Translations under genes and position numbers: made by a program
Origin: Taxawa tesnikishii (nom. ined.)
Taxonomy: Eukaryota; Ascomycota; Dothideomycetes; Dothideales
Assembly (NCBI GenBank): GCA_030247885.1
Contig: JAPDRO010000029.1
Coordinates: 62,001-126,000, forward strand
Reading direction: 5' to 3'
DNA length: 64,000 bases
The notes under the pieces: generated by a model
Told to the model about the DNA's origin: nothing
The model's database searches: none
What the model saw: only the letters and a program-made list of their open reading frames with translations
Part shown: positions 8,841 to 50,758 of the stretch, piece after piece
Position numbering within the stretch: the stretch's first letter is position 1
Layout of the letters: every line of letters starts with the position of its first letter

Positions 8841-8916
8841 TTAAATCTATAAGAATTATATACTATAAGACTACTATTATTAAGCTAGTTTATATTATAG
8901 AGTATTTTATAAGTTA

Positions 8917-9900: not shown

Positions 9901-9920
9901 AGTAAGACTCTTTTAATATA

Positions 9921-11353: not shown

Positions 11354-11523
11354 AGTTAACTCGTAAAGTAACGTTAGTCTTTAAAGCTAGCGCGCGCTTA
11401 AGTAGTATAAATACGCTAATATTAAGTAGTTAAAATATATATAAATAGTAAAGTAATAAAATAAGTAAGTTAATTATATTCTCTATATAAAAGGCTATTA
11501 CTTTTACTATTATATAGCTACTA

Positions 11524-13370: not shown

Positions 13371-13379
13371 TATAGTTAT

Positions 13380-20216: not shown

Positions 20217-20467
20217 GGCGACAAATGGATGAGTGATAGATGGGGGAAAACTTGAGAGGCTAGAAGTTGGTTGAGGCGGCCGGGGGACAGATCACCATCG
20301 TTTTCGTCGGGTTTTTAAGAGTTTGGAAACGGGGACTTGAGAGTCTGGACCCCTGTTGTGAGGCCGCATCCCCTGCAGAGCGGCCGCTACGAAGACAGCT
20401 GAAAGCTCCAAAGGGGCCACCCGCAATCACTAGTGCCCCAGATGCCAGCTTCAGACTCCACTTGCAC

Positions 20468-21085: not shown

Positions 21086-24000
21086 ATGGCGGACTCATCT
21101 GGCCTGGGTGGCATTCGCGATCCTAACGAAAGAGCATTCACGGCACCACCAAAGACAAGATACCAGGCAACCCGGCTGGTTGTCCATGGTGGAGTCAGTG
21201 TCGCCATTGCCCTTCGACGGGACAATGAGACGGGCCGTTTAGCTTTCGACTATGTTGTGCTTGATCCGTCCGGATCGGACCAAGACGGCAACGCTGGCGA
21301 TGGAGATCAACCCAAAACCACAACTGCCAAGACAGAGCTTCTCGATTCCCAGGGATGGACGGATTCACCACTATCTCTCTCGTTCCCGAAGGAAGTTCGA
21401 GTAGCGGGCGAAGAAGCTGTACCGAACTTTCAGCTTCCACTCGTCGACAAAAGTGAGCAGAAGGCAGCAGCGGGGACCCCGGAGTCGCAGCTTCACCCTT
21501 GGTTTTCATCCACGCTGTGTCTCACCGAAGATGTTCCCAATTTTGAGGTCTTATCTGATGGTGGGTTGCAAATATCACATTGGAAGCCTAAGTCAATGGC
21601 AGCATCGCTGACACCAAGTCCAGGAAAGTACGTTTATCTATTCCGGCAGGCCATCAACAGCAAGACAGCCTCTGCAAACAGGCACCTAAGCGCTACCGAC
21701 ATCGGCCTCTATGTCGATGGCAACATTCTGTGCGATCGGTTCATCCTCTCAGGGGCATCCTCATCAGCCCGCTCGAGGTTCGGTATCGGCGCAGTGGCCA
21801 AAAGACGCTTGCCTTGAACACCCAGGATACCCTCGGCATGCGTGACATTAACGATGCCCTCTTTTGTGAGCCTACGTTCTCGATCAGGTTCGTCTCGGGT
21901 TTGCAGCCCGGCAACTTTGCCGTCCTCCGGACCCCGACCATGACAAACGACGAAGTCCGTTGGGTGTTCCTGGCCGTCCTAGCACAAAACAAACAGCTTG
22001 TGTGCTACACATGCGGTGTATCCTCAGACGGGCTGTTTGACGTGCTGGGCCGAGTGTACTACTCGTGCGAGCAGGATCACAAGCGCGTTTTCTCTACCTC
22101 CGCGGGCCGATGCACCGCCCTCACCGACGATGGCTCTTGGTGCCGGAGACTGATGACGCCTGTTGTCTCCTCGAGCCCGCTCTCGGAACGCGCGATACAG
22201 CTTGGAATGGAAGACGTTGACCCAGTTCTGAAGCTTTCTAGCCCGATAGATCTCACTTCATCAGTGTTCAAGAGCGGCTGTACGATGGAGGCATGGGTGC
22301 TGCCGGCTGCCAACACCTACGAACCGGGAGAAACATGCACTATATTCGGCATGAAACCAGGGTCGGGACCGTCCGTCGTCCTCGACCACAAGTTCTGCTT
22401 GGGCTTGACAGATCCGTCTAAGCCGGGCGAGATCCTGTTCCGCAACGATCGACCCTTATCGGCAGACGTGTGGCACCATATCGCCGTGACGATCAGCAAT
22501 ACGACTGTGCAAACGGTTACGCTAGTCGTCGATGGCGAGGCTTCGAAGCCCTTTACTTTCACGTCTTCCACAAGTTTCATGCTTCAGCGCCTTGGATCGC
22601 GTGAGGACTCCGAAGGCGGGGGCTTCTGTGGATCAATCGACGAAGTCCGCATCTGGAAACACACCCTACATCCAGGAACACTTGCGGCAAGCAAAGGCAT
22701 CCGAGCCACAGGACTGGAGGCCCTCCTCGCCGCTTGTTGGCACTTTGACGAAGGCGAAGGTCGTGTCACATTCGATGCCACCGATAATGGCAATCACGTC
22801 AACGTTGAGCTCAAGAATCCGAACCCAACCGACGGTTGGACCGTTTCGAGGCACCTGTCCGTCGTGGTGGTGGTCTCACTCAACAGATCCTCCGGATGCA
22901 ACAGGGGGTCGCAATTACAGGCGGCATCACAGCCTCGACGTACTACGAACAGTCGACAGTTACAATTTCATCGAAAGACTCCAACGCTCCGCAGGGCGGT
23001 AAGGCCAAGGCTGAAGAGAAGCCCCTGAAGCGGTGTGCGAGGGTTTTATTGTGCGCCGTGGCTTCAAAGGAGGGCACGCAGGGAAACCGGCTTCTTGTCC
23101 TCGACTTCGGCCTGCTTTCGGATGGCACGCTGAGCGACACGCCGGGTGTGCTGCCGATCCCATCGCTGAAGCTGACTGTGCCGTCCAGTGGCCTTCCGAA
23201 ATCGTTCGCGTCCCTCCTGTTCATTGACCCCCAAGGCATTGAACTGTTTGGAGGTTTCCTGGACTTCGATGGGGCCAAGTGCGGGAAGGAAGCCCCTTTC
23301 GTCTGGGAAGCCGCCAGCGGAACAGTGACGATATACTTTCGCGGGTCCGAAGGGACGCTCAATTCGTTGCCGTATAACATCAGCCGCGCAATTGCCGTGG
23401 ACTATTCGGCGACTCTGAGCAGCCATGAAAAGATCTTGGCCGTAGCAAAGCTGAGGACAAGCAAGCAGATCACCCTTCGCACGCAGAAGTGCGCATGGGT
23501 CGAGCCCGATGTAGCGGTCGATCTGACCGTCACGGCGATGATGCAAGACAACACCACGCTGACAGAAACCTGGAAGGGTAAGTTGGTCTTCTTTGGTGTG
23601 AATGAAGGTGAGACTAGCCGCTGACCATTGCGACAAACATACAGGCGTGCCAAGCGACCTTGGCACATTCATCAGCATCATCAACGGCTCCTATGTTGCG
23701 GATTGGATACCTGATGGAAGCTTGGTATCTTGCGAGCGGTTTGTACGTCCCCTTTATGAGCAGCAACTGCAAGAACCGAACTTCTAACATGGAGTTCTAG
23801 GAGGATCCCCAAGATTCGCAAGCTGCGAATAGTCTGCGGTACCGCGTCAAGCTTAAAAAGCCCTTGGTAAAGACGTTGATTCCCGGCACTTGCTTGTCCA
23901 TTGACGGAGCCCGTGTGCAAACGGTCGAAGTGGCCGCGGCCGGGACAAACTCGTTTCTTGTCACTCAGCCCTACCGTGCTAGCATGGACTCGACTGCGTA

Positions 24001-27000
24001 CGATCCGAAATCCGCTCTCAAGGCCTCCAAAGGCGCCATGGTGTACTTCCTTGGCTTCGATCACGGAAATCTGGTCTCGTGCACCGGCAAGGGTACCGAC
24101 AGCTTTCAAAACGGATCAAGCATCGTCTCTCTTGCTCAAGAGAGCACAGTCGGGGAGTTCAAGCCGCTCCGGGGCGGTCTGATCCAGGCACCCGCTGAAA
24201 GCACCTTCGACGCGGCCGCCGAGGCGCCTTACTTTTCTGCCACAAGCAACTCGAGCGCCTTGAGTCTCCGGCAAAATAGGGCATTCTCCATGTTCGGCCG
24301 CGCCGCCACAACTCCTGCGTGCTCCGGGCTGACGTTTGAGTCCTGGATCAAGATTGCAACAGGCCCCGACGACATAGCAAGCACGGTTGCGGCGTACACG
24401 TCGGAAAAGCAAGCTCGCTCGGACGGCGGCGAGAAAGAGATCCAGACCTTTGTTCTCTCGGCGGCCCCCAGCGGAAGCCAGACATACTCGCTCGAAGGCA
24501 ATATCAACAATCAACCGTTCCGAGTGGACTCGAGCACAGTGAAGGCAGGCCAATGGACGCACGTAGCGTGCACGTGCAGGAACATTTATTCCCTCCGTCT
24601 CGGCGGACAAGACTATGTCGACCTGGGAACGGCGGCCGAGTTCAACATGGCCGACTTCTCGGTGATGTTCCACATCCAGTTCGATCGGCTGGGCGGCTCC
24701 GAGCAGCTGCTGCTGACCAAGGCTGCCTCGCGTGGCTCACCGACGCCGCTGCAGGTCGTCGTCACTGAGGCATCTCGCCTGCGGCTTACCTTTTGGCCTG
24801 ATGAGGACAGCGATAAGTCCAGTCGAACCTCCTTTATGTGCGACTTGGACAACCCGCTGCAAGCAGGCGTGGCGTACAAGATCCTCGTCTCGCGTCGCAT
24901 GGTCAATGTCAAGGGCAAGTCCGCCCCTCGCCAAGGCCAGCTGATCACGATGAAGGTCTGGTCGGCCGCGGGAACGTTGCTTCACGCTCTCCGGCCGCCG
25001 GAGCTGTCGAAGCTCGAGGACGACTCTTCTTCCGTCCTCGATGCAAAGACGCTTTCGTCGCTGCCGGCACCGCCGCTTGCGGGCTCACAGCAGCGACAGA
25101 CGCCCCCTTCTCCTTGGCGGGGCCCCGTTCGCAAAAGGGGTCGAGGGCAAGATCGGCGGCTTCCATGTTTGGTCGACGGCCATCGAGCCCCCGGACGACA
25201 TATCCAAGTGGAAGCCCGAAAACGCGGCCAAGTCCTGCGTCAGCAGCTACTCGTTCACGTCGCCCGAGGGCAGGGTGCTGTTCGATGACAAGACTCGCAA
25301 CCACGGCAAACTCCGGGGCAACCCGCACTGGACCTCATCGCCGTTCGCAAGCGACGCAAAGCTCTCCGTGTACATCAACGGCGTCGCCCAGGAAACTAAA
25401 CGCATCCCCGTCAGCGCTGAGCTGCGGCAGCCCGCCGGCCCCCACCAGCTCACGCTCGGCAACGCCATCCACGGCGACAGCACATTCCGCTACCTCTCCC
25501 GCAAGGCCAACTTTCGGGGCGAGTTTGACGAGCTGCGCATCTGGGAGGTGGCGCGAAGCCTGGAGAGCATCTGCGACGCCCTCTACTCGAGACTGACTGA
25601 GGTGCCGCCCGAGATCGCCGTGTACCTCCCGTTTGACGATGTGTTGCCGACATCCGACGCCGCGGCAACGCCGGGACGACATTCCCCTGCATCCGCGACG
25701 AGTCGATCAACTGCTGGCACCTGTCCGTCATCGGCGCTGGCACGCCCGAGTTCTGCGTATCGGGCGCGCCGGTAGGCTCGGATGCGGCGTGCGTGGCCCA
25801 GGCGCTCCGGACGGGGCCGGCCCCGCAACTGGCGCGGAAAGTCCGGCCCGGGTCGCGGCCGTCGGTTGGCGAGTATGGCGATCTCACGATTGGCGCGAGC
25901 GGCGGCATGGAGGGATCGCTCAAGCGCGTCTATGGCTTCATCGACGCCGACTCGGGGCAATGGGTGCTCGTCACGGGCTTCAAGATCGGCGCGCTGATCA
26001 CCGAATGGGTGAGCCAAGTGCAGACATCTCCGACGCTGATCGGATACATCGAGGGCGCCCCGCCTATCCCGGCCGAGAACTTTGCGTCGAGGGACGACCG
26101 CCCCTTTAGCGCCATCCGCTTCGTCAACGCGACGAAATGCAGCTACTCGTACAGCTCCCGGCGCGAATCTGGCCTCGACAGCAACATATCCTACAGCAGG
26201 GGAGCCGGAGCCAAGTGGGAGGCCACGCTGGGCCTGGGTGCCACGACGCAGGTGGCCTCCGGCGAGGTCAAGGGCGCAGTCAAGGCCGTGCTCGACGTCT
26301 CCTCTTCCTCGCTCACCAACGAGATGTCGACGGCTACGTCTCATTCCACTCTGGACATGAGAGTCGAAACGACGGGAAGCTGGACGGCCAAGGACCAGGA
26401 TGGTAAGGAGCGCTACGAGCCGGCCAACACGGGCGTGGCGCTTGTCGAGAGCGAAGTGGCCGACGTCTTTGCCCTCCGCTTGAAGTTACGGGGGCCGGTC
26501 AAGCCCCTCGTGGCCTACCAGATGAGGCCCAATCCCGACATTCCCAAGGACCGCAACCTCGTTTCGTTCAAGATCAACCCCATGTATACGAAACAGGGCT
26601 GCCTGGACGGTCGGCGCGGCCTCGAAGCCGACGCGTCGTATCCCATGGCAGGACAAGACGGTCCGCCCCGGGACGTGTCGTACTTCAAGCCCAGCGAGGC
26701 CTACGCGCTGAAGGACAGGATCCGCCGGGCCGAGGAGCAGCTTGCCGGCGAACATGAGCGCTACGATCTCTCCCGGGTCAACTACGCCGCTTCCTCTCTT
26801 GTCAGCTCCATCGACAAGGGCAAGCTGGGCTGGAAGGAGCTGCCCAAGCGGAACAAGCGGAACATCTGCAACTCGTATGTCTGGACGGCCGATGGCGGCA
26901 CGTTCCAGGAGACGCTTTCGACTATGGACTTTGTCCAGCTAGAGGTCGGCGGCAACAGCAATGTGCGGATGGGCATCGGAGGCAGCTTGGACGTCGAGGT

Positions 27001-27826
27001 TTCCGTCTCGGCATGCATGGCTACGATGAATGTCGACGCCCTCGTCGCGACGCATTTCAACATGATGCTGACAAAGGAGTCGAATTCCGAGACGTCGTTC
27101 GAGCTGCAGGTCGACATGCCCCCGCCCATCGACATCCGGGAGCAGGACCCCGTGACAAAGGAATGGGCCAAGCGACCCGGAGCCGTGGATACGTATCGGT
27201 GGATGAGCTTTTGGCTCGAGCCGAGCGTCGACGCCACGGCCTCCTTCTTCCAGCAGGTCGTGGATCCGCTTTGGCTGCAGCAGTCCTCTGATCCCGACGC
27301 TTCCGTCCTGCGCTCGCTCTCGGAGTCTCTCAAGGTCGAGAAGCAGGATGTCAAGACCAAAGCCTGGCGCGTGTTCCACCGCTGCACCTACGTCAGCCGG
27401 GTTCCTGAGCGGATCAAGAGCCCTGCTGCTGCTGCTGCTGCTGCTGCGGCTGCCGCGGAGCAGGAGAAGAAGGGGTTGCATGATTACGCGCCGAGCTGGA
27501 TGCTCATCTCGGCGCTGGAGCCGTATGTCCGGCCGGCGAAGAACAAGAGCGAGGTGGCGGCGTATGCGAAGCCGCTTGTTCAGAAGCTTTATCCTGCATT
27601 GGAGAAGCAACCGAGGCTGTTGGATCAGGTTTTGAATATGGTGGTGGAGTATCTTGGTGTTCCGGGGCAGGACATAGGTGAAGTTTTGGATGTCAACCTT
27701 TTTTTTATATGGATTAGTTGCGGCCTTTTTGGATACACGAACAATTTCATCGTTGGCCATTTCAACTCCACTTCCCTACCTCGATCAGAAACATCCATCA
27801 ACAGAGCCGCCAGAAGCGCGCAATGA
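21086..27826 (+). CDS. Giant LamG/ConA-like domain protein, frame disrupted
   Basis: The preferred start is the ATG at 21,086 (GCGCAATGGC); an upstream ATG lies at 21,059. Two clean introns are visible: 23578-23644 (GTAAGT..CAG) and 23743-23800 (GTACGT..TAG). Three LamG/concanavalin-A-like units can be read near 22,230-22,700, 24,250-24,600 and 24,600-25,560, with hallmark strings such as TMEAWV, DVWHHIAVT and GSIDEVRIWKHTL, later GEFDELRIWEVA. The last third (25,790-27,670) is a long soluble region of unknown family with a Gly/Ser/Thr-rich segment and a poly-Ala run at 27,424-27,450. The reading frame changes about six times outside the introns, several in short homopolymers, so the gene is either decayed or affected by base-calling errors. 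A splice at 27,678-27,804 would join it to the downstream FHA-kinase. Function unknown. Confidence 0.6.
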
Positions 27827-29977
27827 CCCCGTGCCGCATCTCGAATTGAGGTTCAGCCGCGAACCGCGAACCACCAATGGCTTTGTGCTTGGAAAAGACC
27901 CAGACACAAGCGACATTGTCCTCGTCAACGAAAAGGGCATCAGTGACCACCACTGCGCCATCACATTAGAGAACGACTTCAACGACATCGACGATTATCG
28001 CCTCGTCGTACGCGATATGAAATCCAGCTGCGGAACCTCCGTCGAGTACGACAAGGAAGCTGGCCGCGATGATGGGGGCGTGCGCCGCGATTCCCGCTGG
28101 ATTGTCAGCGGGCACCTAGTCCCAAAGAGAAACAGACCAATTATCATCGAACTCCACGAATTCTTCAGATTCCGAATTGTTGTCTCACACCATGACATAG
28201 GTTCAGACCTGTACATTGACAATGTCAATTGGTTCCTTCAGGGGGCAATGAGTATGGACGATCTCTTCTGTCAACTCGGCCTCACAAGCCGTCAGCCAAC
28301 CGAACTCCCCAGCGGGGCACATACGCCCGGCACAGGCACAGTCTACCTGAAGAGGAAACTTGGCGAAGGTGCCTTCGGGGTCGTGACTCATATTTAGGAC
28401 GTCAGCGACGGAGATGAGTACGCCATCAAAGAGCCCTCTAGGAAGGTCATCCGAGAGAGAAGGGTCAACGAAAATGCGTGGAAGAGGGAGGCCCATATTA
28501 TGGGACGAATCTCGCATGTTAGTCGACCAACTCATTCCACGCCCCACATCAATCCTAATGTCTTACTAGGACCACGTTGTGAAGTTTATGCGGTTGCCTC
28601 AATTAATCTTCGAGTACGTCCGCGGGGAGCTCTCGAGAACCACGACAACATATCAGCCAACGAGGGGTGCAGATTCTCTGTCAACTGCTCTCGGCACTTA
28701 CATGTCTCCACGGGCACGATCCGCCTATTGCACATCGAGATATCAAGCCAGATAACATCCTTATCCAGCATCGATACACTGGCGACATTTATGTCAAGTT
28801 TGGGGACTTTGGTCTCTCGAGAAAGCCGTGATCCAACGACGGTCTGCAGCTCTTGGCGATATGCCGCCCCGGAGATCCTCAACGAAAGGGACAGAAGAGA
28901 TGCCCATCATAAGAAAAGGAGTTACACTCTAGCTGTCGATATCTGGTCCCTTGGCGTGACTGTCTTCGAATGTGTCTACGATCTTCCATCCAAGAATGCC
29001 ACAGGAGTATCTTGGTCTCAAGAAATCGTGAAGAAGCTGAAGAAGGACCTCCAGAGGAATCTGGACGACTTAAAACAGCTCCTGTGGGACACTATGGTGA
29101 TCATGACGCCAGAGCAGCGACAGCCAGCCCAGTACTGCCCCTTACTGACCAGGATTGCTCTCCGACTCCGACTCCAGCGTCTTAAGCCCAGGGTTATCAA
29201 CGATCAGTGGGCCAATACAGCGTTGCAGACGACTATGGCACAGATCAGTCAACCGTGGTGCTCGAAGATGCACACACGACTGGCAGACTCCTGCCGAGCC
29301 TTTCCCTGGACGACGACGACGACGACGACGACTCGGCGGAGAACCGAAGGTATATCAGATCAGACGGCCCGCCTCCCGATTCTCAGGCATCAGCGAGCTC
29401 TCACGAGAGCTGGTTGCAGGATCCGCTCCACCTGCTCGGTGGCGGGTCCGACGTCGCAGCATTAGGACAGGGGATCTCTGAACCGAGGGGCCGGGCTACC
29501 CAACTCGAAGAAACACCTCGCTACACAGGCTTTCCAGACAATGAAGATTTCGAGTCTCCATCAAGGGAGACGCGGAAGAGGTCGACTCGGCAATCCAAGT
29601 CGTCTTCATCAAGCGGAAGACATAGGAAGCGTCGTGGACACAGTTTCGTCGCAGCTAAGTCCAGCGCCCATCGGCATTATGAGGACCCTGAACCTGAGGC
29701 GCTGCATTACCACCTGGAACGCAACAATGAAGACTATGGGCCTGCGCCGTTCGAGGAGTCGAATTGGACGGAATTCGGCGTTTCAGGTGCTGGCCAAGTC
29801 TATGACTTGGGCCCATTTCAAACGCTGATACTTTCGCAGAAGATGCTCCTGTCCCGACCCACACGCAAGACCGGCGCGGAGGGGAATAGGAGAGTCCATG
29901 GACGGAGAGCGAGGCATATATGGCAGAAGCTCTGCTGTTTGCAATCCGCTAGGACTCTTGATGGATTTGGAAGATAA
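27805..29977 (+). pseudogene. FHA-domain protein kinase, broken
   Basis: An FHA domain is clear near 27,885-28,070 (FVLGKDPDTSDIVL, then SDHHCAI). A Ser/Thr kinase domain follows: glycine loop GEGAFGVV, VAIK-like EYAIKEP, catalytic loop HRDIKPDN at 28,733-28,756, DFG at 28,805, APE (YAAPEIL) and DIWSLG. The tail is acidic and Ser/Arg-rich and contains an octa-Asp tract. An intron at 28518-28569 fits. The kinase is interrupted by an in-frame TAG at 28395-28397, where the family usually has Trp (TGG), by a frame change at the G run 28664-28667, and by another frame change just after DFGLSR. More frame changes occur near 29,150-29,210. If independent of the LamG gene, the start could be the ATG at 27,678. 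As drawn it cannot make an active kinase. Confidence 0.65.
29309..29332 (+). repeat. GAC microsatellite in the kinase tail
   Basis: Eight GAC triplets in a row encode the poly-Asp tract of the kinase C-terminal tail. Confidence 0.9.
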
Positions 29978-32963: not shown

Positions 32964-34190
32964 TTACAACTTAACATGCAGCTCTTTCAAATCCATTGTC
33001 TCGTCCTCAGCCTTCTTAAGATAACCCTTGCTCATAAGGTTCGGGAAAATAGGAGTGTAGTCGAAGAGGGTATCGCGGATCCAGGCGAGAGGGTAAGGGA
33101 GGGCGTGGAACATCCTGCCGAGGTTCCGGGCAAATTCCATGTTGTGGTTAACGTAATCAATGCGCTTTTTCTCGAACAGCTCGAATCCGGCGCTTACTGC
33201 TCGCTGGTCTCGCAGGTCGACGCCGTCGAGTGCCCTGGCGAGGTAGTAGCCGTCCTCAATGGCCATGCCTATGCCGTATGCTGCGTAGGGCGATACGGGG
33301 TGCACTGCGTCGCCGATGCCGATGATTCGTCCTTTCGACCATGTCTTCATCGAGGGCCGGTTGTAAATTTCCCATCGAAACACCTGTTTGTCAAAGTCGG
33401 TGACTTCTCGGAAGCGAGGCATGGGATCAGCCCAGTCTTTGAGGATGTTGGTGACATGAGCCTTGACGTCTTCGGGGACGGGCTTGCCCTCCCAGGACGG
33501 CTCGACGATCCACCACTCGAAACCGGGCTTTCCATCGTGGACCATGGGGAAGAAGCTAGCCTGATGCTGCCAGTCGTGTGAGACGCATCCGAAGTTGGGC
33601 GGGATCCCCTCGATCTTGTCGCACCAGGCCAGATACAGACGGATTCCAGTGTGGAAGAGTTTGGGGTCGCCAAAAGCCTGCCTGGATACCTTTGAACGGA
33701 TGCCGTCCGCCCCCACGAGAGTATCGGCAATCATAGAGTTTCCGTTCGCAAATCGAACCTCGACGCCGTCATCAAGCTCAACGTATCCGATGACTTCGTG
33801 GTCGGGGTAAATGACGCCCTCGGGGACGAGGTCGAGCATTTGCCTGAACACCGAGGAGCGAAGGATTCCCTAGTGCCAGCCTCTGATGCCCATGGCCTTC
33901 TCGACTTTGGAATTGAATGGGAGTATGACTCGGTCTTTGCCTTTGTGATTCTGGAAGTGTGTGACTGAATATTCTCCGATCTCGTCCAGTTTCATGTCGT
34001 AGGAGCGTAGGATTGACAGGACTGGAGTGTTTAACAAAACAGCACCTCCGATAGCCTTGGGTTCTGGCTGTTGCTCGAAGACGCGCACATCATATCCCCT
34101 CTGAATGAAGGCGAGGGCGGCCGAGACTGCGCCGGGGCCGCCTCCAGCGACTGCCACTCGGCGTCCTGGGCGCCACTGTGTTAAAGACAT
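32964..34190 (-). pseudogene. FAD-dependent aromatic monooxygenase with in-frame TAG
   Basis: One frame of 408 codons plus stop covers the whole family length. The FAD-binding GxGxxG region is AVAGGGPGAVSAALAF near residue 14, the DG motif is DTLVGADGIR, and the GD motif is IGIGDAVHPVSPYAAYGIG, placing it in the PHBH/salicylate-hydroxylase-like group (flavin monooxygenases that hydroxylate aromatic acids with NAD(P)H and O2). Codon 107 (33872-33870) is TAG between GWH and GILRSS, where the frame otherwise continues without a break. CAG to TAG is a CpA-to-TpA change, the RIP signature, and RIP-affected transposon DNA ends within about 100-450 bp of the 3' end. No intron resolves the stop. The gene is probably inactivated in this strain; substrate unknown. 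It is nearest to the DapA-like and ALDH genes. Confidence 0.8.
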
Positions 34191-34994: not shown

Positions 34995-35962
34995 CTATTC
35001 GACAACCTTCAACCCAGCATCCTTTAGTAACCCCTTCAACTCCGCCCTCTCCTTCTCCCCGAGCAGATGGAACGGTTTCCTACTCCCTCCCGTGCTCCTT
35101 CCCAAGAGCTCCATCCCCGTCTTGATGGCGGCGGCGTAATTGTAACTCTCCAGGAACTTGCAGATGGGGAAGATTTTCGTCCACAACTCGCGTCCCTCCT
35201 TGAGATCGCCGCGCACCGCAACCGCGTCCCACAACCGCACGGACAGTTCCGGGATAATGTTCGTGGCACCCCAAACGCTGCCTTTGGCGCCCGCGCAGAG
35301 GCCGTAGAAGGTCAGTGTATCCCAGCCATTGAAGGCCGTGATCTTGGAACTCAAGCTCTCGGTGAACAGCAGGTCGGTCAGCGCGGGGGCGTTGCCGGAT
35401 GTGTCTTTCATGTACTTGACGCCAGACTTTGACAGATCGGCAAGCTGCTGCGGGCTCAGAGTCAAGCCGCTCGCAGACGGGATGTTGTAGTACATGATTG
35501 GCAGACCGGAAACCTCGTGCATGTGCGCGAGTAATTCATTGAGCTGGTCCACGGATACGGCATCGTAGAACGGCGGCACGACCATGAGGGCGGCGGCGCC
35601 TGCTTGAGCTGCGTGCGAGGCTAGTTCGGAGCACTCGGAGGTGGAGAGCGCGCCCACGCCTGCTATCACGGGGACTCTGCCGCGCGCGGACTTGACGCAG
35701 AGTTCGATCAATTGTTTGCGCTCGGGGACAGTCATAGTGGTGAACTCTCCCGTACTGCCGCCGGGGACGAGACCATGAACGCCGGCGGATATGAGGTCCT
35801 GGAAGATGTGTGGTTGGCAATGACTTGTTGGATTAGAATGGGGGATGAGGGTCCTACCTGGATGTGTGCGTCGAGTGCGTCGGCGTCGATTGCGCTCTGG
35901 TCGGCCGTCCAAGGTGTATATAGGGCGACCATGATGCCCTTGAGCTCCTTCGAGTTGGCCAT
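34995..35962 (-). CDS. DapA/NAL-family aldolase or lyase
   Basis: Two exons, 35962-35858 and 35798-34995, with a 59-bp intron (GTAGGA..CAG), give 302 residues, the usual length of the dihydrodipicolinate synthase/N-acetylneuraminate lyase family. Motifs: LVPGGSTGEF (GxTGE-type substrate loop), IMYYNIP with the catalytic Tyr, and VKYMKDTSGN with the Schiff-base Lys. These class I enzymes join or split pyruvate with an aldehyde. In fungi most members are sugar-acid or keto-acid aldolases (for example the L-threo-3-deoxy-hexulosonate aldolase group) rather than lysine-synthesis enzymes, since fungi use the aminoadipate route. Start: ATGGCCAACTCGAAG, the first Met of the conserved ELKGIMVALYTP region. 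It is divergent from the ALDH gene at 36,916, which may share its regulation. Confidence 0.88.
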
Positions 35963-36915: not shown

Positions 36916-38959
36916 ATGTCTTCAGACCTTTTCGTCAAGCTAACGGCACCGAATGGACGAGGGTATGAGCAGCCGCTCGGTCTGTTCATCAACAACGAAT
37001 TCGTCCGCTGCTCCCACGGCCGCACCATAACATCAATAGACCCAGCGTGAGCGACTGCCCCCGTTGTACCTCCACTCGCAAACTCCGTGTTTGAAGGGTC
37101 AAAGGTTGACGTTCTGACCAGGACCGAGTCGGAGATAACAACGGTGCAAGCAGCTTCAACCGACGACATCGATCGCGCTGTCAAATGCGCTCGCGCGGCG
37201 CTGAGGAGCCCGGCTTGGAAACAGCTACCTGCGACCGATAGGGGAGTCTTGATGGGGAGACTCGCTGATCTTATGGAGAAGAACGTTGAGCTGCTTGCCA
37301 CCATCGATGCCTGGGACAACGGTACGCGAATCTCCTACTCACGTTGGCCAGCACTGTTCTCGACGGTGCAGTTGGACTGATTTAGTGACTGCTGTCGTAT
37401 GGCAGCAACGCCTGTCCCTAAACTGTAGGGCGTCCCATGAGGGTCTGTGCTGCCTCGCAACAGACACAGGGTTATGAAGAGCCCAGTGTCTGGGGTCTAC
37501 ATTGCTCGCACAGCCATCCTCGCTGCCTTGCAATCACGGTCACTTGGATCAATCCTTCTGCGTTCCTTTTTCAAAACCACCTGTTGGGTCACCAACAAAA
37601 GACGTGCTAGAAGCGGAAATCGAGACTGACGCCGCTCCAGGCAAACCATACTCTGTCGCGCTGAGCGAGGACCTCCCGGAAGCCATCGGTACGATCCGAT
37701 ACTACGCCGGCTGGGCTGATAAGACGTATGGGCAGACCATCTCAACAACACACAAGAAGTTCGCTTACACGCTCCGTCAGCCGATCGGTGTGGTCGGCCA
37801 GATCATCCCCTGGAACTATCCGCTCTCCATGGCGTGCTGGAAACTGGGTCCCGCGCTCGCGTGCGGCAACACCGTCGTCCTGAAAGCCGCCGAACAGACA
37901 CCCCTCAGCATTCTCGTCTTCGCCACTCTGATCAAGGAAGCGGGCTTTCCTCCCGGTGTCATCAACCTCGTCAACGGATACGGAGCAGAAGCCGGCGCGG
38001 CCATAGCACGCCATCCGGATGTCGACAAGATCGCCTTCACGGGATCGACTGTAACGGCGAGGGAGATCATGAAGCTCGCGGCCGGAACCTTGAAGAACAT
38101 CACGCTCGAGACGGGCGGCAAGAGTCCCTTGATCGTATTTGACGACGCCGACATCGACCAAGCGGCCAAATGGGCTCACGTCGGCATCTTCTCAAACCAG
38201 GGACAGATCTGCACCGCCACCAGCCGCTTGTTCGTGCAGGAGGGGATCTACGACGCCTTCGTCAAGCGATTCAAGGAGGTCATCAAGGAGACGAGTATTC
38301 TCGGAAACCAGTTCGAGGAGAGCACATTCCAGGGTCCGCAGGTGACGAAGCAGCAGCACGAGCGCATTCTCGAATACATCGAAAAGGGCAAATCCGAAGG
38401 CGCGACGGTCATCTACTCGGCCGATGCGGACAAGGAGAAGCCACAGAAGGGCTACTTCGTCTCGCCTACCGTCTTCGGCGACGTCAGGGACGACATGAGT
38501 ATCTGTCGAGAAGAGATTTTCGGGCCCGTCGTCGTTCTCTCCAGCTTCAAGACCGAAGAGGAAGCGGTGGCGAGAGCGAACGATACAATGTACGGCCTGG
38601 GCGCCGCCGTATTCACCACCGATCTGGAGAAAGCACACAGGTACGTGATCTTGCACGCTAATCTGCGCACCGTCGGCACACAAGAGCTGTGGAAGAAATC
38701 TCCCGCGAACGCATCCGTATCACGGATCAAGCAATCCGAGTGAGCGCCAGTTCTACGCATCGCTAACGCCATCCACCACAGGGTCAGCGCGGAGATCGAA
38801 GCGGGCATGGTCTGGGTGAACAGCAGCCAAGATTGCGATCCGCGAATCCCTTTCGGCGGCGTCAAGCAGAGTGGGATCGGGAGGGAACTGGGCGAGCAAG
38901 GCCTCGAGGCGTATAGTCAGGTCAAGGCGGTGCACATCAACATGGGGAACAAGCTGTGA
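36916..38959 (+). CDS. NAD(P)-dependent aldehyde dehydrogenase
   Basis: Four exons, 36916-37046, 37122-37321, 37641-38640 and 38782-38959, give 502 residues, the normal length for the ALDH superfamily. Visible motifs: [12 protein letters not shown] (cofactor cleft), [30 protein letters not shown] with the catalytic Glu, and [14 protein letters not shown] with the catalytic Cys. The C-terminus has [15 protein letters not shown]. It oxidises an aldehyde to a carboxylic acid, probably in the cytosol since no targeting signal is seen. All junctions are GT-AG and the frame is intact, a useful contrast with disrupted neighbours. Introns 2 (319 bp) and 3 (141 bp) are long for this genome. Its cluster partners are the divergent DapA-like gene and the monooxygenase. 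The substrate cannot be told from sequence. Confidence 0.93.
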
Positions 38960-39831: not shown

Positions 39832-42503
39832 TCAAGAAAGCACGAGGAAGATCTTCTTCTGCAACATGACATCGGGCCACCTCACTTCCGTGCCCTCGAC
39901 TCCTCCCGCCCCGGCTTCCCGGGCATTCCTGATCTCTCTCGCGGCACTGACGGCGCGATCGAACGCCCGGCTGCCGTACCTGTCCGCACATGCCCTCATC
40001 CAGTCCAGGATCTGCTCGAAATCGGCCTCGTCGATCGCCTCCACGGCCGCCATGAAGCCCGGCCAGATGATGCTGGAAGAGGGGATGTTGTATTGGGTTT
40101 TGTTGAGTTCGGAGACGAGGATGTAGGAGAGGATGGACTTGACGAGGCCTTGGAGGGCCATGCGGTGTACGTCTTTGACTTCGCGGTAGAAGTATAGGAG
40201 GAGGGCTGTGTGAAAGGCATGCGAGACGTGCGAGACTACCTGGTAGGATAGGAGTCAGCAGAGCATTCGAAAAATTCTGGGCACGTTGAACAGGATAACA
40301 CCGTACGCCGGTGTTTGACAAGACGCGTGGCGGAGAGATGGCACTCATGGTTAACTGTGTCCCCTTGCGGGCGACCTATTGAGAAGACCGCTATAGTGTG
40401 TCAAGCATCACGTACCTGCTGCATAGCGGGCGATGCCGAGTTTGTCGGACTAGAGGCGTCGGAGTCGGGACTGGAGTCGTTGTCCACCAAACAATGGGTA
40501 GAGCTGATCTCTGGTTCATAGCTCCAATTGCACAACTGCTCTTCCACGACTTTGACGCGTCGATCAAAGTCCTCACGCGCGTTGACGGAAGGACTGCCGG
40601 AGGTGTTGCCGGAGTTTTGCTGTGCTTTGAACTGCCTCGCCTCGCATGCCACGAACGTGATATGCGACATGAGCACGATCAAGCTCTCAGGTAGCCCGAA
40701 ATTCACGGCCATGCGCTCTCTTACTGCGGGATCGGCGTCGTGGTCCTCGAACAGCGCCTCAAACAGCGCCGGTTCCTCTGCGTGTTGCCTCTGGTGATGA
40801 TAGTCGCGGAGGCTGGGCATGGCTAGAGATGGGTACTTGAGTAGGCTGTAGGCGTGCAGCCGGTCCGTGAATGGCTTGTCCCCTACATGGATTGGATACA
40901 CAAAAGTAGCTTCTTCCATTACGCGGAGGTATATGAACATGGAATGTAGTAGCTGCATTTTGGAGGACCTCTGGGTGAGCGCTCGAGATGACGTGTTGAT
41001 GAGTTTCTGAGCGTCGAGCAAGTACAGGCGCGCCTGCTCGAGCCTTCCGCTCGTTAGCTGTGAGAGGTGTCAGCCGGATTTTGGCGTAAGAGACCACGCT
41101 ACAGTTGCAAAATACTCACACAAACGGTAACCAGAGTGAGCAAAGCCATCAGGATGGTCTTGTGTTTCGCTTTCGAGCCACTGTTCTCGTGCTTTAGACT
41201 TAGCTGCAGTCTGGAAATAGCTTCGCATTGATATTTCTCTCCGATGCCCTGGTAGAAGCCCATGTCCGATTCCGATGTCGCCATCCTGTCGAGGTGGAAC
41301 GCGCTGGCGGCCAACAGAGCAGAAAGGACAGAAAGGCTAGCATTGCTAGGTTTGGTACGAAGCGCAATCTTTCCCAATGTCTTTTGTACTTCTGGTAATT
41401 GGAGACGGTGCCAGGGGAGTTACCGCCGAGACAGAGAGGGCCGACGCGTACGAAGGTGTTGATGAAGTGGTTCATTAGGAAGCTGGTCTCCGGTGATGAA
41501 TCATCGATCTTGCAAAGCGAACGGTAAAACTTGGGTACCAAGTTCGGCGGGTCTTCAGTATCGTGTTCTTGCTCGATCTCTTGGACTGGCAGGTGCTGAG
41601 GGAACAACCATGACGTCGGGTTTGTGGAAACATCGTCCGTAACCGAACCAAACCAGGGGATGTGTTGAGCCAGGATGCATCAATGGTATACTGCGAAACA
41701 TCCGGCCCGAACACGGTATGGGAAGGCGCAAGCATGAGATTGGAAATTTCGTGATCAAGCTGGCTTTCTGCAGGTGGCAGTGATTGGGACTCCATCGCCA
41801 TGGTCGCGATCTGGTCGAGTGGCGCGGGCGCTTCCATGGACGTAACGAGGCCGTCTATATCGATGGGCCAATCCACATCGAGAGTTGGTCCCTGAGACAC
41901 TAATTCGAGTCCAGCTGTAGTGGGATCAGCATGGGGTGGCAAATCGGTCACGTCGTGCGCGAGTGCCAATCTAGCAGCGACTCCAGATGAGTCCGTGGCT
42001 GCAACCACGTCCGCGTGAGCACATACGGGGGCGATGCGTTGCCGGTAAGAACGAAAGCGCCAAAAGGCCCTCGAAGAACAGTTTCGCCACCTGAGTGACA
42101 GCGCTCCTCCAGGTCGGCAGCTGTGTCCCTGTAGTTAAGGTGGTCGGCGGACTCGTGCATCAGGACACACATAGAAAGCCGTTCGGCATCTATTCGCAAT
42201 CAGCACAAGCATTGAACATGGATGTTGCGTGTATCACACACCAGTAAACAGTGGCCGCCGAGTCCGCCTTCCATCCTCGGCGAGCGTATCATTGCACTCT
42301 GCACCGTCCTCAAGAGCGCCGTCACGGACGTTGTCGACACTGATCGGTCGCATCCATTGCACAAGAGCTTCATAACCACTGCATTGTAGCTTGAGTCGCT
42401 GACAGGCTCCGCATTTGGGCCTTCGTTCATCACATTTGACACGCCGTCGGCGGCAGGTTTGGCATCCGGTGAAAGTCCTAGAGCGCGTCTTTGCAGCGGG
42501 CAT
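39832..42503 (-). CDS. Zn2Cys6 transcription factor, Fungal_trans_2-like
   Basis: The N-terminus has a binuclear zinc cluster: GCQTCRRRRVKCDERRPKCG followed by ACQRLKLQC, giving Cys spacing CX2CX6CX6CX2CX6C. Introns are seen at 42190-42241 (52 bp), after GPLCLGG (near 41,420), after LVTVC (near 41,115) and between MQQ and VVSHV (near 40,425-40,240). The C-terminal half, ending in a WPGFMAAVEAIDEADFEQIL region, resembles the fungal-specific domain of PF11951-type regulators. Total length is about 700 residues. The frame slips at 42027-42031 and at 41656-41659, both G runs on the plus strand; otherwise it reads cleanly, so I suspect base-calling errors. As the only DNA-binding regulator in the metabolic run, it is the natural candidate to control the nearby oxidoreductases; that is inference. 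Confidence 0.85.
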
Positions 42504-42924
42504 GCTGTCTGATCTGCATGGTGCCTATGCGGAGGAAGGATGTGAGGAAGTGAATGGGTTGTGCATCCGGTTGCATGTCATAGTGTAATGTGAGGTTGAT
42601 TGAGAGGGCAGCCCTGAACCTGCCGGCGTGAGCCAAGCAGAGCCGCAGAACTTCTCCGTCCAGTCTCAGTCTATTGAGCGTCCCATTGATTTTGACTAAG
42701 CTTTACATTATGCGCTGACGGTTTCTTGATATGAAAATTAGTTGTTCAGAGATTCCATTTCGCTAATTATCTATGAATTATACATATAGAGTCAAGTCCA
42801 CGAGAGCTTCGTTGTTGTGTTGTAAACATTCGAAAGTGGTAGGTTTTGGTGAGAATCCAGCGGAATCCCAAGATTTCTGACAGATTGGTCACTGCCCCGC
42901 GGTTCATGTTACATACTACTGTTA
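42504..42924. other. Intergenic, upstream of the regulator, no gene seen
   Basis: Contains the regulator's upstream region and the 3' flank of the FMN dehydrogenase gene. A string CCCCGCGGTTCATGTTAC at about 42,896-42,913 resembles the end of the Fot1-family TIR with two changes, but has no partner. Confidence 0.45.
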
Positions 42925-44449
42925 CTACAACTTGGCGAGAATTCCGTCGCGGTTAAGCACAGCCAGATGTGCCGAGGTGATATCCTTGACAGTAGCACAA
43001 CTACCCCACCATGTTAGCAACGCACGGTGACGCACTGATTCAGAACAAAGCTCACCCAGCCAAGCGCATCGTTATGGCGAATTCCTGGAGGAGGATCTTT
43101 ATGGCCAGATCCACGCCTTGCTCGCCATTGTACTGCATTCACTTTAGCTCGCCTTCTGGACAGGCTGCGAGTGCGTTCCAGCAAGCCCAACACTTACCGC
43201 TAACCCCCAAATGGGAATCCTCCCGACGAAACAGTGCTGCGCACCCAGCGCCAACGCCTTGAAGATATCCGAGCCCTGCCGTATACCGCCGTCGACGGCA
43301 ATTGCGATCTTGCCTCTTGCAATCGGAGCGCACTCTCGAAGCGTATCCAAAGTCGCTGGCACTCCATCAAGCTGCCTTCCTCCATGGTTCGAGATGACGA
43401 CGCCGTCGAGTCCGTATTGTATGGCCATGTTGACATCTTCCGCCGTATTCACTACGAGAGCGTCAGCCGCTGATCAATGGGCAGATAATGTGTCCAGAAC
43501 CTACCTCCTTTGAGCCAGACTTGCATCTTGGTGTTCTCTCTCAGCCAAGGTATTGCGGAGTCCCAATCCAGGCTTGCATCTGCTGCGCGTCAGCATTGAT
43601 CTTAGTCGCATCTCGTCCAGCCATATCTCGAGTCCCATACCAAACACGACGTCATCGTTTTGACCTCCGAACTCGTCCTGGCCATTTGACAACAGGTTGG
43701 GAAACCTCATGCCTTCCGGCAGCATGAAGTTGTTCCTTTGCTCGTTCAAGCGTCGGCCAAGAACAGGGACGTCGACCGAGACGAAGATGGCCTTGTAGCC
43801 GGCCTCTGTTATGCCACAGCGTCAGCACAACATCAGGTTTCATTCTACTCGCAGGCTCAACTTACCCTCCGCTCTCTTTAGCAGCTGCAGTGTCGTCCCT
43901 CGGTCTTTCAGCACACAAACCTGCATAAAGTATGGGTTCCCTAACCCTTGAGCCGCAACGTCCTCGAGCGAACTGGTGGCATACGATGACAACCCCATGC
44001 AGATCCCGGCTTTTGCGGCGGCTCTCGAAGTGGCGACCTCGCCCTCAGGGTGAGCTAGACCGTGCATGGCGGCGGGACTGAAGCCCAGAGGAAATGGCAC
44101 CTGCCACAGGTCTCGTCAGTGGGTCCAATTCGAGTTGCACACCTCTCGACGCAACGGTACCTTTATGCCGAATATCTCGGTAGACATGTCAAGCTTGTCG
44201 ACGTTCACGAGCACGCGGGGGCGGATTTTGAAGCGGCGGTATGCGAGTTCGTTGTCTTCCAGTCTAAATGAATGGATGTTAGAAAGGTATTTGGAGCATT
44301 ACGGTGTGAGCGCTCACGCACGTTTCCATCGCCATGGCTCCATCGTTGAAGTAATCGCGGTACATCCTGGTCATGCGAGAACTTCCCTCACGCTTTAGAT
44401 CATCGATTGTGAAGACCAGCGAGTCGAGGGTCTCTGCTCTGTTCGCCAT
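42925..44449 (-). CDS. FMN-dependent alpha-hydroxy-acid dehydrogenase/oxidase
   Basis: About seven exons start at ATG 44449 (MANRAETLDSLVF). In order the protein shows VPFPLGFSPAAMHGLAHPEG (FMN-binding first strand), MGLSSYATSSLEDVA, QVWLKG (Lys near FMN N1), VVISNHGGRQLDG with the catalytic His and Arg, and DGGIRQGSDIFKALALGA (phosphate-binding). It ends DITSAHLAVLNRDGILAKL. This is the glycolate oxidase/lactate dehydrogenase/mandelate dehydrogenase family, which oxidises 2-hydroxy acids to 2-keto acids. There is no cytochrome b5 domain, so it is not a flavocytochrome b2. Clear introns include one beginning GTATGGGAC inside the NDDVVF region and one beginning GTAAGTGTT after PIWGLA. No frame break was found. 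The gene is divergent from the NmrA-like gene. Confidence 0.9.
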
Positions 44450-44875
44450 TGCGAAGAAGTTGTTGGGATACGATGGCGCAAAGGAGTAAGACAGATGAAG
44501 CTATTGTGATCGCTCGATTCACAGCGCACAGTTGAGGTACGAGAACAGCGAGGTAAAGTACATGGAACACTGCTTTACTGTATAAGTTTCTCGGATGGTT
44601 CGCGGCGACCACGCCACCACGGCCACATGCCTATCGCAGCGTCCGATCTGCGGAGTGCAGCGATCCAGCCAAACTCTCCACCCGACAGCTGCATGGCTCG
44701 CGGAAGCCTGCCACATCTGGCATGCTGCACCCCACACGTCCCCGCTGTCAACTGTACTTCCCAAACGAGGCCACACGTACAAAAGTGTGCGCGTCAGGTC
44801 CACGTTCCGCGTCCAACCACACTTTCTTGTCTTGCCACCAGACGACTGCTTGCTCGGCGACCGAGAAAATCGACC
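44450..44875. promoter_or_regulatory. Divergent promoter region of FMN dehydrogenase and NmrA-like genes
   Basis: A 426-bp space between two divergent starts, without long frames or repeats. Shared regulation is inferred from orientation only. Confidence 0.4.
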
Positions 44876-46165
44876 ATGCCCAAGATTTTTCTGTGAGTGA
44901 CCCTTGCCGTGCGCTAGCCCGATCCGGTTAGCGTGAAGCAGCTCTACCCTACTTCGGACCCTGCCACCTGTACTAATCCGGAGCAACCAGAACAGGGGCT
45001 ACAGGGTTCGTGGGCGGAGACATCCTTCATGCCGTCGCCACTGCTTTCCCTTCGTCTTCCATCATAGCTCTAGTTCGGGACAAGTCCAGAGCCTCCAAGA
45101 TCGCAGACAAGTTCAAGAATGTCAGTCTCTGCGAGGGTGACCTGGATTCAAAGGATATTATTGCGAGGGAGGTCCAAGAGTGTGACGTTGTTATAAGTGT
45201 GCTTCACCTCACCGTGTGAAGGTCGACATCGAAGTTACTAACATTTATATTTAATAGACGCGGCGCAAGCCAAATACCTTCCCGGAGTCGAGAACATCGC
45301 AGAGGGAATCCGTCGATCGTCCCGGGACGCACCGAGTGAGCTTGACTTGTGTAAAACCGCAAGTGTTATCACAGCGTTGATCCCAAGTAGTCCACTTCAT
45401 CCAGATCTCAGGCGCTAGCGTGCTCTCCGCCCCGGACATCGTCGCCAAATCTTACGGCGAAGCATCCCCAAAGTCTACGACGACCTAGATGGAGCCTCTG
45501 AGATCCACTCTCTCATCTCGAAGACGGCATCGCGAGCCGTAGATCAGTACGTGCTCCAGTTCGCGCAGCAAAACGAGGACAAAGTCCGCACAGCACTCAT
45601 CTTCCCACCCATCATCTACGGGCAAGGCCGAGGGCTGGGCAACTCGCGCAGCATCCAGATCCCGGACCTGTGCAAGTCGGCGATCGGAACGGGGAGAGCG
45701 TGTACGTGGGCAAGGGCGAGGCGAGATGGGGTAACGTGCACATCTCCGACCTTGCCGATCTCGCCGTAAAGTTGGTCCGTGCCGCCCTCTCCGACCCGTC
45801 TTCTGCCTCGTTATGGAACCAAAATGGGCTGTATCTGGTCCAGACGGGCGAGATCGTAAGTTTTCTTCCAAATCTTCCGAACATGGAGCTAGAAACGCGC
45901 CGCTAACATCTTTGTAGACGTGGAAGGAGATCGCTGAACACATCGGCAAAGCTGCGGAGGGATCTGGGAAGAAGGCAGGAGTCAAGTCTGTCAGTGCTGA
46001 GGAAGCGGATAAACTGTTTCCGCATGGAAGCGTGCTGTTTGGGACTAACGCTAGGGGAAGTCGAGTAGGGCTTCCGAACACCTTGGGTGGACCACTGCGC
46101 AGCATAGTCTGGAAGACGAGATTCCGTTGACGTTTGACCGGGAGTTGAAGGCTTCGTCGCGGTAG
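44876..46165 (+). CDS. NmrA-like NAD(P)-binding (atypical SDR) protein
   Basis: Start ATGCCCAAGATTTTTCT, then introns 44893-44990 (TACTAAT branch point), 45197-45257 (TTACTAACA branch), 45336-45387 and one after GEI (about 45,856-45,918). The N-terminus is MPKIFLTGATGFVGGDIL, a Rossmann GxxGxxG loop, followed by ALVRDKSRASKIA and CEGDLD. Further on come FIQISGASVLSAPDIVA, FPPIIYGQGRG and RWGNVHISDLADLAVKL, typical of fungal NAD-dependent epimerase/NmrA-like proteins of about 340 residues that bind NAD(P). The C-terminus reads LEDEIPLTFDREL in a shifted frame. The frame slips at 45466-45469, 45691-45694 and 46085-46087, all short C or G runs, while codon content and introns look healthy. A functional gene with base-call errors is more likely than decay. 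Confidence 0.8.
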
Positions 46166-46365
46166 GAACATGATCGGTGCCCTCGGATTTCTGGACAATC
46201 CCTGAATTGAGCGCTGTGAGAGAGCAGCAGTCATTCTTACTTCCAGATGGAGTCAAAGTATGCAGGCCCGGCTAGGCTTTGCTCGACCGTCGCTCTTGAT
46301 CGTAGTTGGGGAATCCGAAGGGGTTGATGTGGGAAGTGCCCCTGGATGGCGCGCAAACGTGCCGT

Positions 46366-47700
46366 CTACCTTCCCAAGATCGCCAAATCTTCGTTGAGTA
46401 CGGAGCTACAGACGATATAGAACACAAGCAGTTGTTGACCTGTAACGATGTGGAAAAATAAAAGTTCAAAGGTCATAACTGGAGTATTCAACTGTTTACT
46501 CGATTGCACAAAAGACCTAGCTAAGCATACAGTCGTACACTCACTGTTCTTCAGTCCACTTGTCGACCACACCATCATCAATCTTGCAAACGGGTTGAAC
46601 TTCCCATACCACTTCGTCTTAGCTAAGACCAGCATCTCTGTAGCTTCGACAATGTCCAATCCCGTGAGTAAGTCAATCTCTCTTGCATCTCTCCACCAAT
46701 TCTCACCCCTAGCAACGGCGAAACGGTGACCGATCCCCAAGACCACGAAGATAGGAATCCCAATGTAAGAAGTCAGGAAGGTGCTCAACGTTCCAGTTGT
46801 CCGCCACGAAGACCTTGAGACCGTCGACCATCATGATGACGAAGAAGAAGAAGACACCGCAGAACCAAGCGGCGTAGGGCAGGAAATCGGAGCGGTATGG
46901 AAGCTCGTCGACGCCTTGCGCGAAAGTGACGTGCCGGAACCGCAGGGAAGATGATGCAAATTGCGAGCCAGCTCTGCAACCAGCCGGTGTTGAGGAGGGT
47001 TCACGAACGAATTGAAGACGACCGCGCTAGAGCTGGCCGCGGTTCAGGTAGGCGAGAAGGAGAACGACGCACGGACAGCGATCGAGTAGTACGGGATACC
47101 GCTCTTCGTGCACTTGGAGAGGAACTTGGATGCATTACCCACGACGGTCATGGAGTAGAGCGCTCGGCTGGAGAGGTAGAGGTACGGATTTGCTGCTGAC
47201 CATGCTGAAGTAATAATGACAGCGTTGATGGCGGACCCTGATCCCCTGATACCGACGAGTTTGGTTGCGATGGCCCAAGGTGACGATCACGCTCAGCTGC
47301 CTCCGCCGAGAAGGCTGTGGTTGTTGCCCGAGACGATAAGGCCGAAGCAAAAGACGCCCGAAACGTAGAAGATGACGAGACCTGCTCGAGAGGTCAGCAC
47401 AGAGTCTAGGGAGCTGCAACACATGGTAGATAGTTGAGGTATAGACAAGCTTATGGTAGAAATCGCGTCTCGATGCGGTCGGCACGTAGGGTCTCGGATT
47501 TTGCATTCCTCCCGCCGTGACGACCATGACCTCGGGAGGGAATACGAATGCAAACGATGAGAAGGTGACAGTGTCCACAAACGCGCAAAATCTTCCACGA
47601 TGTTGGTGTGGAATCAGGAGCAAAGAGCCAGCCTATATCGCTCTCGAGCGTCGTGTCGAAACGGAGCAATTCTAGTGCAGCACGGAAACAGAGCTAGTTC
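46366..47700 (-). pseudogene. Amino-acid permease (APC family), damaged
   Basis: Segments in several frames line up in order with fungal amino-acid permeases: FCAFVDTVTFSSFAFVFPPE, then MQNPRPYVPTASRRDF, AVIITSAWSAANPYLYLSSR, SKCTKSGIPYYSIAV, LPYRSDFLPYAAWFCG, NWN, FLTSYIGIPIFVVLGIGH and EIDLLTGLDIVEA. These cover about the last eight membrane helices and the cytoplasmic tail. The frame changes several times, at least once at a C run near 46,943, and sequence upstream of 47,700 no longer reads as the N-terminal helices. It may be a truncated pseudogene, or a gene hit by base-call errors whose N-terminus I failed to find. It would import an amino acid, which fits the neighbouring decarboxylase. 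Confidence 0.65.
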
Positions 47701-48885: not shown

Positions 48886-50758
48886 TTATTGCTTCTTGTG
48901 TACGGTGGCCAGCTTGCTGCGAACTGGCACGTTTACATTCTGTCCTGGCTTTGGGAAGCCGGACGGGTTTACGCCCTTGCGGAAGATGAGCGTGTGCTAT
49001 TAACATAACGTTAGCAAAGTCCAAAAGTTTATGGAAAGCCATGTTAGGTAAAGCGAATGGCGCCGACTTACACTGGAGCCACCAAAGTGGAACATTCCGG
49101 TGCACTGGCCCTTCTTGACGTGGTCGCCTTCTTTCACGGTGATCTCACACGTGCTGACTTCATCCATGCCGATGCCGATAAAGCACATGAGGCCAATGTC
49201 TGGGTTGTCTGCTTCCATGAAAATGATGGCTCTGTCAAGATGTCAGCACCTCCAGAAGCGCGTTCATGCCAGTTGTGAAAAGATTACCTAGTAGCCAAAT
49301 GTGCAATGTAAGATTGACTGCTCGTCAAGCCAGCCTTCGACTCAGCCGCATCGTTCGTCATGAAGATGGCGGAACTGATCTTCTCCGAGAAGTACGTGCC
49401 ATCAGCCACAAATGCCTTTTTGATCGTACCGCTAACGGGTGCGTGCCAGCGATGGTAGCTGAGCGCAGAGAGGAAAGCCTGGTAGACTGTGCCGCCGACA
49501 AACTGGGGCGCGAGGTCGTCGCCGGCCATCATGTCTGAGAGGGAGTACTTGTTACCTTTTGTCCAGAATTCATCAACGAGTTTGATGTTGTGCTGAACGT
49601 TGAAGGGTCTGGGTGGCGCGAATTAGCAATGCGGAAGTTGTGGGTTGAAAACGAGGGGCTGACTTTGACTCGCATGCGTTGACGATGACGCTGTCGTCGT
49701 CAGGGTCGGCAGTCTCACGGTAGCCGTCCGCTAGCTCGCGGGTGAAGAACTCTGAACAGATGTCAGCCCAGTGAAGAAACCGCGAAAGTAGTATTAGTTA
49801 CCGTCCCAAGATTTGTAACCAAAAGTCTCGTGGTTGGGATCGCACTTGAAGCAATCATGGAACTGGAGTTGCGATCCTGGACCGGTAGCCTCATTTGCCA
49901 CCGTGCAGACATCATTGATAGCGGTCTTACCGAACCAGCCAGTTTTGTTTTTGTGAAGGACTTTGGCGCTCTCGGGGACTATAAGCAGTGTGAGCGATAC
50001 TGCGACGAGTTCCTAGGAAAGAAATCACATGATACCTTTAGGAATCTACCCCACTCGTTAAGTACCTTCTTCATCCCTGCATTGAAGTCGCCTGCAACAG
50101 GTTGAGCTCGGACTTGTCAAGAAATGGATTCATGTCACTCACTGTCGAGAAAGAGCGCGTAGCCGGACGGCGTCGCCATGGGCCAGTCGAGGGTGGCCTG
50201 GAGTCGTATAAGCCAACGTCTTGAAAGACAGCTACTTTCGTGTTCGTCTGCGATACCACTCACATTCATCGGTACTCCCACTAACCCAACTTGCGCCTGA
50301 TGCTCCGTGAAATGCGGTCCTTGCCTCATGATGTGATTCAACACCTGCAAAAGGTGGTCAAAGTCGCGGATCTGCTTGTGGCCTGCAGGATCTAACTTGT
50401 ATGGTCTGGCCCTGTAAGTAGATGTCATCACGAAGCATTACCAGAATCCTTCTTACCCTCTGTTCGGGATCTCCTCGAACATTGCAGTTGCGAGCATTCT
50501 CAGCTTCGTAGAGCTCTTAACCATATCGCCGAATTCCTTCAGCACAGGGTTGAGCTCCTGCGGATTGTTGTCGACGTGCTTCACTTGCTCGCTGAGCCAA
50601 TTGTTGTGGATACGATGGTCAGCGGGCATCCATCCACCGATTCTGGTATCCTAAGTTAGTAGGTGAACTTGTCGAACGCGTCATGTTCCTCACCTCTGAC
50701 GTTGGTGCTCATCAGGAATATCATGGTGGATCTCGTGTGGTACGTCGGTCTTAGGCAT
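48886..50758 (-). CDS. PsiD-like phosphatidylserine-decarboxylase-family protein
   Basis: A multi-exon gene starting at ATG 50758 (MPKTDVPHEIHHD). Its N-terminal part (IGGWMPADHRIHNNWLSEQV onward) corresponds to the extra domain found in secondary-metabolic PSD-like enzymes. The core has ALSYHRWHAPVSGTIKKAF, IIFMEADNPDIGLMCFIGIG, MDEVSTCEITVKEGDHVKKG and FHFGGSSHTLIFRKG. The GGSS motif is where this family cleaves itself to create the pyruvoyl cofactor. The same blocks characterise Psilocybe PsiD, an L-tryptophan decarboxylase, so a soluble amino-acid decarboxylase is more likely than a mitochondrial lipid enzyme; no membrane segment is seen. Introns are short GT-AG, about seven of them (one ends in ATACCAG before AATCGGTGG). 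The C-terminus is LATVHKKQ. Substrate unknown; the neighbouring amino-acid permease supports an amino acid. Confidence 0.85.

Follow-up and report, generated by a model that had tools for sequence, protein, structure and literature searches.

Single-base frame jumps at short G/C runs in a fungal gene region are most likely a sequence-quality problem, while a neighbouring permease remnant may be genuinely decayed

Results

The 64,000-nucleotide stretch analysed here (the window) is fungal-looking, with Zn2Cys6 and Fungal_trans_2 domains and short introns read as GT-AG. Eleven genes (Table 1) were followed by eye in three frames, and this reading is the basis of every jump count; the 50–64 kb part and a low-complexity open reading frame (ORF) at 18759-20291 were read only in part. 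A jump was scored where the protein seems to switch frame and carry on with no intron that could plausibly explain it. The exon limits behind the run counts, interval tests and spread tests were likewise set by eye. Four places were left out before counting: the 3' part of the kinase gene beyond 29130, a permease junction near 47380-47446, the ambiguous decarboxylase junction, and the junction of a C48-peptidase-like ORF, which changes frame in a short overlap (52915-52927) without a homopolymer of four and can be read as an intron or a jump. Rfam and tRNA searches returned no match and no tRNA, respectively, and a single pattern scan each of viral_contigs and genome_contigs, neither of which includes fungal genomes, turned up no relative.

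The left end of the window is AT-rich (G+C about 26% across positions 1-12000) and carries a tandem array of a 32-base unit at 8677-8868. An AT-rich element is present in inverted and direct repeats at 9142-14137 and 30702-32521. Most differences between its copies are transitions (78 of 84 in one pair and 94 of 112 in another), a pattern like that left by repeat-induced point mutation.

Table 1. Genes followed in the window and the frame jumps read in them. Directions and runs refer to the hand-set intervals; gains are those of the codon model.
Feature	Position	Strand	Direction	Run in interval	Gain	Reading
Lectin-metzincin-like gene	15090..16781	-				one jump
metzincin jump	15662-15682		base missing	G/C run of 4	8.8	
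LamG gene	21086..27690	+				long ORF series with Laminin_G_3 matches; four jumps
LamG jump	21722-21778		base missing	G/C run of 4	17.2	
LamG jump	22846-22881		base missing	no run of 4	22.7	
LamG jump	25067-25128		extra base	G/C runs of 4-5	36.2	
LamG jump	25653-25682		base missing	run of 3	30.4	
FHA-kinase gene	27840..29130	+				three jumps; in-frame TAG 28395-28397
kinase jump a	28615-28635		base missing	G/C run of 4	4.1 (weak)	
kinase jump b	28650-28673		base missing	G/C run of 4	1.2 (weak)	
kinase jump c	28814-28827		other direction	no run of 4	2.0 (weak)	
FAD-dependent monooxygenase-like gene	32964..34190	-				no jump, otherwise open; single in-frame TAG 33870-33872
DapA-like gene	34995..35961	-				intact; one intron; 9 exonic G/C runs of at least 4
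Aldehyde dehydrogenase (ALDH) gene	36917..38959	+				intact; four exons; 6 exonic G/C runs of at least 4
Zn2Cys6 / Fungal_trans_2 regulator	39832..42503	-				two jumps
regulator jump	42002-42082		base missing	G/C run of 5 and T run of 4	24.0	
regulator jump	41649-41669		base missing	G/C run of 4	19.7	
FMN-dependent dehydrogenase gene	43052..44449	-				intact; several short introns; 3 exonic G/C runs of at least 4
NmrA-like gene	44877..46167	+				three jumps
NmrA jump	45456-45479		base missing	G/C run of 4	21.1	
NmrA jump	45683-45706		base missing	G/C run of 4	27.9	
NmrA jump	46050-46061 (or up to 46119)		base missing	G/C run of 4	17.5	
Amino-acid permease remnant	46515..47640	-				six jumps; in-frame stops 47293-47295 and 47287-47289
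permease jump a	47056-47076				3.6	
permease jump b	47025-47041				8.6	
permease jump c	46991-47010				5.5	
permease jump d	46936-46955				8.3	
permease jump e	46770-46786				29.4	
permease jump f	46585-46599				0.9	
Phosphatidylserine decarboxylase gene	48886..50012	-				intact apart from an ambiguous exon junction near 49600-49670

Domain searches followed several of these genes across the changes of frame. The kinase profile is matched at 103-147 and then at 154-251 in different frames, and Fungal_trans_2 spans three exon pieces of the regulator (30-104, 108-247 and 261-381). Pfam NmrA is matched by the first exon piece of the NmrA-like gene only, the frames of the later pieces resting on codon statistics and on family motifs; a PDB search with one NmrA piece gave no match. 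The lectin-metzincin label was taken from the original prediction, and the two pieces of this gene that were searched gave no Pfam match. The ALDH intron at 37322-37643, of about 320 bases, is long compared with the other introns read in the window.

In total, 19 jumps were read, 13 across five genes and six in the permease. None was read in the monooxygenase-like, DapA-like, ALDH, FMN dehydrogenase or decarboxylase genes, the ambiguous decarboxylase junction being uncounted. The original prediction had named seven G/C runs at which a base appeared to be missing. Six of them lie inside intervals in which the frame changes: 42027-42031, 41656-41659, 45466-45469, 45691-45694, 28664-28667 and 15665-15668. 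The seventh, at 46085-46087, is probably misplaced: stop codons limit the third NmrA jump to 46055-46128, the codon model places it best at 46056 (90% interval 46056-46119), and GGGG at 46054-46057, which fits best, is the more likely site, with 46085 still a possible one. A permease site near 46943, described as an extra base, does have that direction. Four jumps in the LamG gene, two in the kinase gene and five in the permease come in addition to those already described.

A codon model trained with the tested gene left out preferred a switch of frame at all 19 sites, with both flanks scoring as coding; the codon tables of the interval analysis, by comparison, were trained partly on the tested genes. 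The gain exceeded 5 nats at 14 of the 19 sites and was at or below this value for all three jumps of the kinase gene and for jumps a and f of the permease. A frameshift-tolerant codon model run over the whole window made 12 switch calls and recovered six of the 19 hand-read sites (21746, 22885, 25103, 25662, 41662 and 45692). Another of its calls, at 35808, coincides with the DapA intron as read by hand, and five further calls (19839, 29103, 52643, 56452 and 60319) were not counted. The sole in-frame stop of this model, at 15444, falls inside a stretch hand-read as an intron.

Outside the permease, a G/C run of at least four bases is present in 10 of the 13 hand-set intervals (expected 2.34; P 2.9e-6), a count open to bias as the intervals were fixed after the sequence had been seen. 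With the permease included, the count is 10 of 19 (expected 3.06; P 1.8e-4). The 90% intervals of the codon model, which depart from the hand-read positions for all three jumps of the kinase gene and for jumps c, d and f of the permease, contain such a run in 9 of 13 cases without the permease (expected 2.79; P 2.0e-4) and in 9 of 19 with it (expected 3.87; P 0.006). The hand-set count becomes 9 of 13 if the third NmrA site is put at 46085, and 10 of 14 if the C48-peptidase junction, which has no run, is included. A/T runs show no excess in the jump intervals outside the permease (1 of 13; expected 1.31). The exons hold 59 A/T versus 109 G/C runs of at least four bases and 5 versus 17 of at least five; if runs were hit in proportion to the 59 and 109, the probability of all ten jumps falling at G/C would be about 0.013. 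As the original prediction had stated, not every long run is affected: the ten genes other than the permease contain 106 G/C runs of at least four bases, against ten jumps at such runs.

Among the 13 jumps outside the permease, 11 have the base-missing direction, compared with two of the six within it (Fisher P 0.046). Of the ten affected runs, four begin in codon phase 0, three in phase 1 and three in phase 2. Since all three phases are affected, the reading frame plays no part, which points to an origin in the DNA and not at the ribosome.

The spread of jumps by gene length over all genes is uneven (P 0.0007), the permease being the driver; over the ten remaining genes the test gives P 0.07 by length and 0.049 by number of runs. 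By length, the spread over these ten genes is consistent with a single uniform rate, and an even spread is compatible with sequencing error without strongly supporting it. None of the 30 runs (out of 106) in the five jump-free genes is affected (P 0.030, for a split made post hoc). ALDH and DapA had been put forward as intact neighbours without such runs in coding sequence; both do read intact, but the description of them as free of runs is wrong (Table 1).

Four in-frame stops were read, one each in the kinase and monooxygenase-like genes and two in the permease, and no in-frame stop was met in the frames followed through the metzincin, LamG, regulator and NmrA genes. Such stops are not directly produced by indel errors. 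For the kinase stop, a repeat-induced transition would be a further fitting origin. Substitution errors are described as frequent after short homopolymers in PMC12007338 and could perhaps account for some of the stops.

The permease differs from the other affected genes. None of its six jumps lies at a G/C run of at least four bases, four have the extra-base and two the base-missing direction, and their density (six in about 1.06 kb) is an outlier at the rate of the remaining genes (P 1.4e-4). AA_permease was matched by two of the 14 pieces searched, at 266-342 and 377-437, both in the C-terminal half, and the N-terminal half was not found with these pieces. In all six intervals (46585-47076) the longest G/C run, of two to three bases, begins at a third codon position; runs this short are frequent, and the coincidence may be without meaning. 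The permease stands apart from the other genes: it may be a patch that was poorly covered and less well sequenced, or a genuine truncated pseudogene, and we lean slightly towards the pseudogene.

Two further comparisons were rejected as evidence. In the non-coding DNA of the window, G/C runs of exactly four bases are in excess (136 versus 100-106) and longer ones are in deficit (20 versus 29-33). However, of two accurately sequenced E. coli K-12 stretches one shows the same G/C pattern, and the run-length spectrum therefore carries no weight as support for error. The repeat copies in the AT-rich part contain few indels, one 722-base pair having none, but the repeats are too AT-rich to serve as a test of G/C runs, and this scarcity bears neither for nor against error at such runs.

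Discussion

The best explanation for the 13 jumps outside the permease is, with good confidence, a homopolymer error of the consensus at G/C runs. Most of these jumps would be length errors at runs of about five bases, such as low coverage or weak polishing leaves in long-read assemblies, and the genes of the organism itself are probably intact. The frame changes, their association with G/C runs, their direction and their indifference to codon phase are direct observations, from which we infer both the miscounting of reads and the technology responsible. A systematic homopolymer error, as originally proposed, thus accounts well for these 13 jumps, with their link to G/C runs, mostly single direction and open flanks, but does not extend to the permease or to the four stops, and has lost the contrast with run-free neighbours. 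Besides the stops, the slightly uneven spread over genes by run number speaks against error, as does the A/T preference of published homopolymer errors. Taken together, the frame jumps at G/C runs are most likely an ordinary sequence-quality problem, while the permease may be genuinely decayed.

The affected genes could instead be true pseudogenes beside a repeat-rich, AT-rich region, their indels being genuine mutations that arose by slippage at G/C runs. The restriction of jumps to six of the eleven genes, with the other five jump-free despite their 30 runs, would suit such decay, as would the two stops and missing N-terminal half of the permease and the single stops in the kinase and monooxygenase-like genes; the ratio of four stops to 19 jumps does not by itself decide against it. 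However, four jumps but no stop were read in the frames followed through the 6.5 kb LamG series, the NmrA, regulator and metzincin genes likewise have jumps without stops in these frames, and the association with runs appears tighter than would be expected from ordinary mutation at runs of five. For the 13 jumps outside the permease, we regard decay as the main rival explanation, but as an unlikely one. A mutator lineage, for example one without mismatch repair, that gathers one-base losses at G/C runs genome-wide is far less plausible still: the direction and the preference for runs would fit, but there is no excess of A/T runs, and a genome disrupted this often (13 jumps per about 18 kb of exon) would hardly be viable.

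Programmed ribosomal or transcriptional slippage might also join the frames, and a backward slip would bridge 11 of the 13 jumps. Against this, the slip runs have no fixed position relative to codons, a single gene has up to four jumps, both directions occur, and the frame passes unchanged through most similar runs, so that this reading has next to no probability. The same holds for the idea that the run lengths are real and that one-base losses at G/C runs are tolerated because slippage in transcription or translation restores the protein.

If consensus error is the right explanation, G/C runs interrupt the gene models derived from this record and could lead to genes being wrongly called broken or split, and annotation and claims of gene loss from this assembly would be premature before accurate reads are at hand. 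If it is wrong, a gene cluster is decaying in an unusual, run-specific manner.

Among known systems, programmed ribosomal frameshifting resembles the window in that the protein carries on in another frame, but differs from it in the phase-independent sites, several per gene and in both directions. Fungal pseudogenes beside repeat-rich AT regions resemble the permease, with its many jumps, stops and missing half, and the window shares with them the nearby AT-rich repeats with mostly transition differences; the five other affected genes are unlike them, as their jumps are tied to G/C runs and they have few other lesions. Homopolymer indels are described as the main residual error of nanopore assemblies, those of ascomycetes included (PMC9453082, PMC8011154, PMC12007338, PMC11232133); low-coverage nanopore assemblies of ascomycetes contain indels inside and outside homopolymers (PMC9453082), and deletion errors peak following runs of four to five bases (PMC12007338). 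Two of these sources describe A/T homopolymers as more error-prone than G/C (PMC12007338, PMC11232133), whereas only G/C runs are concerned here. In its one-base jumps within otherwise open genes, mostly deletions and concentrated at homopolymers some four to five bases long, the window nevertheless resembles long-read homopolymer error as these sources portray it.
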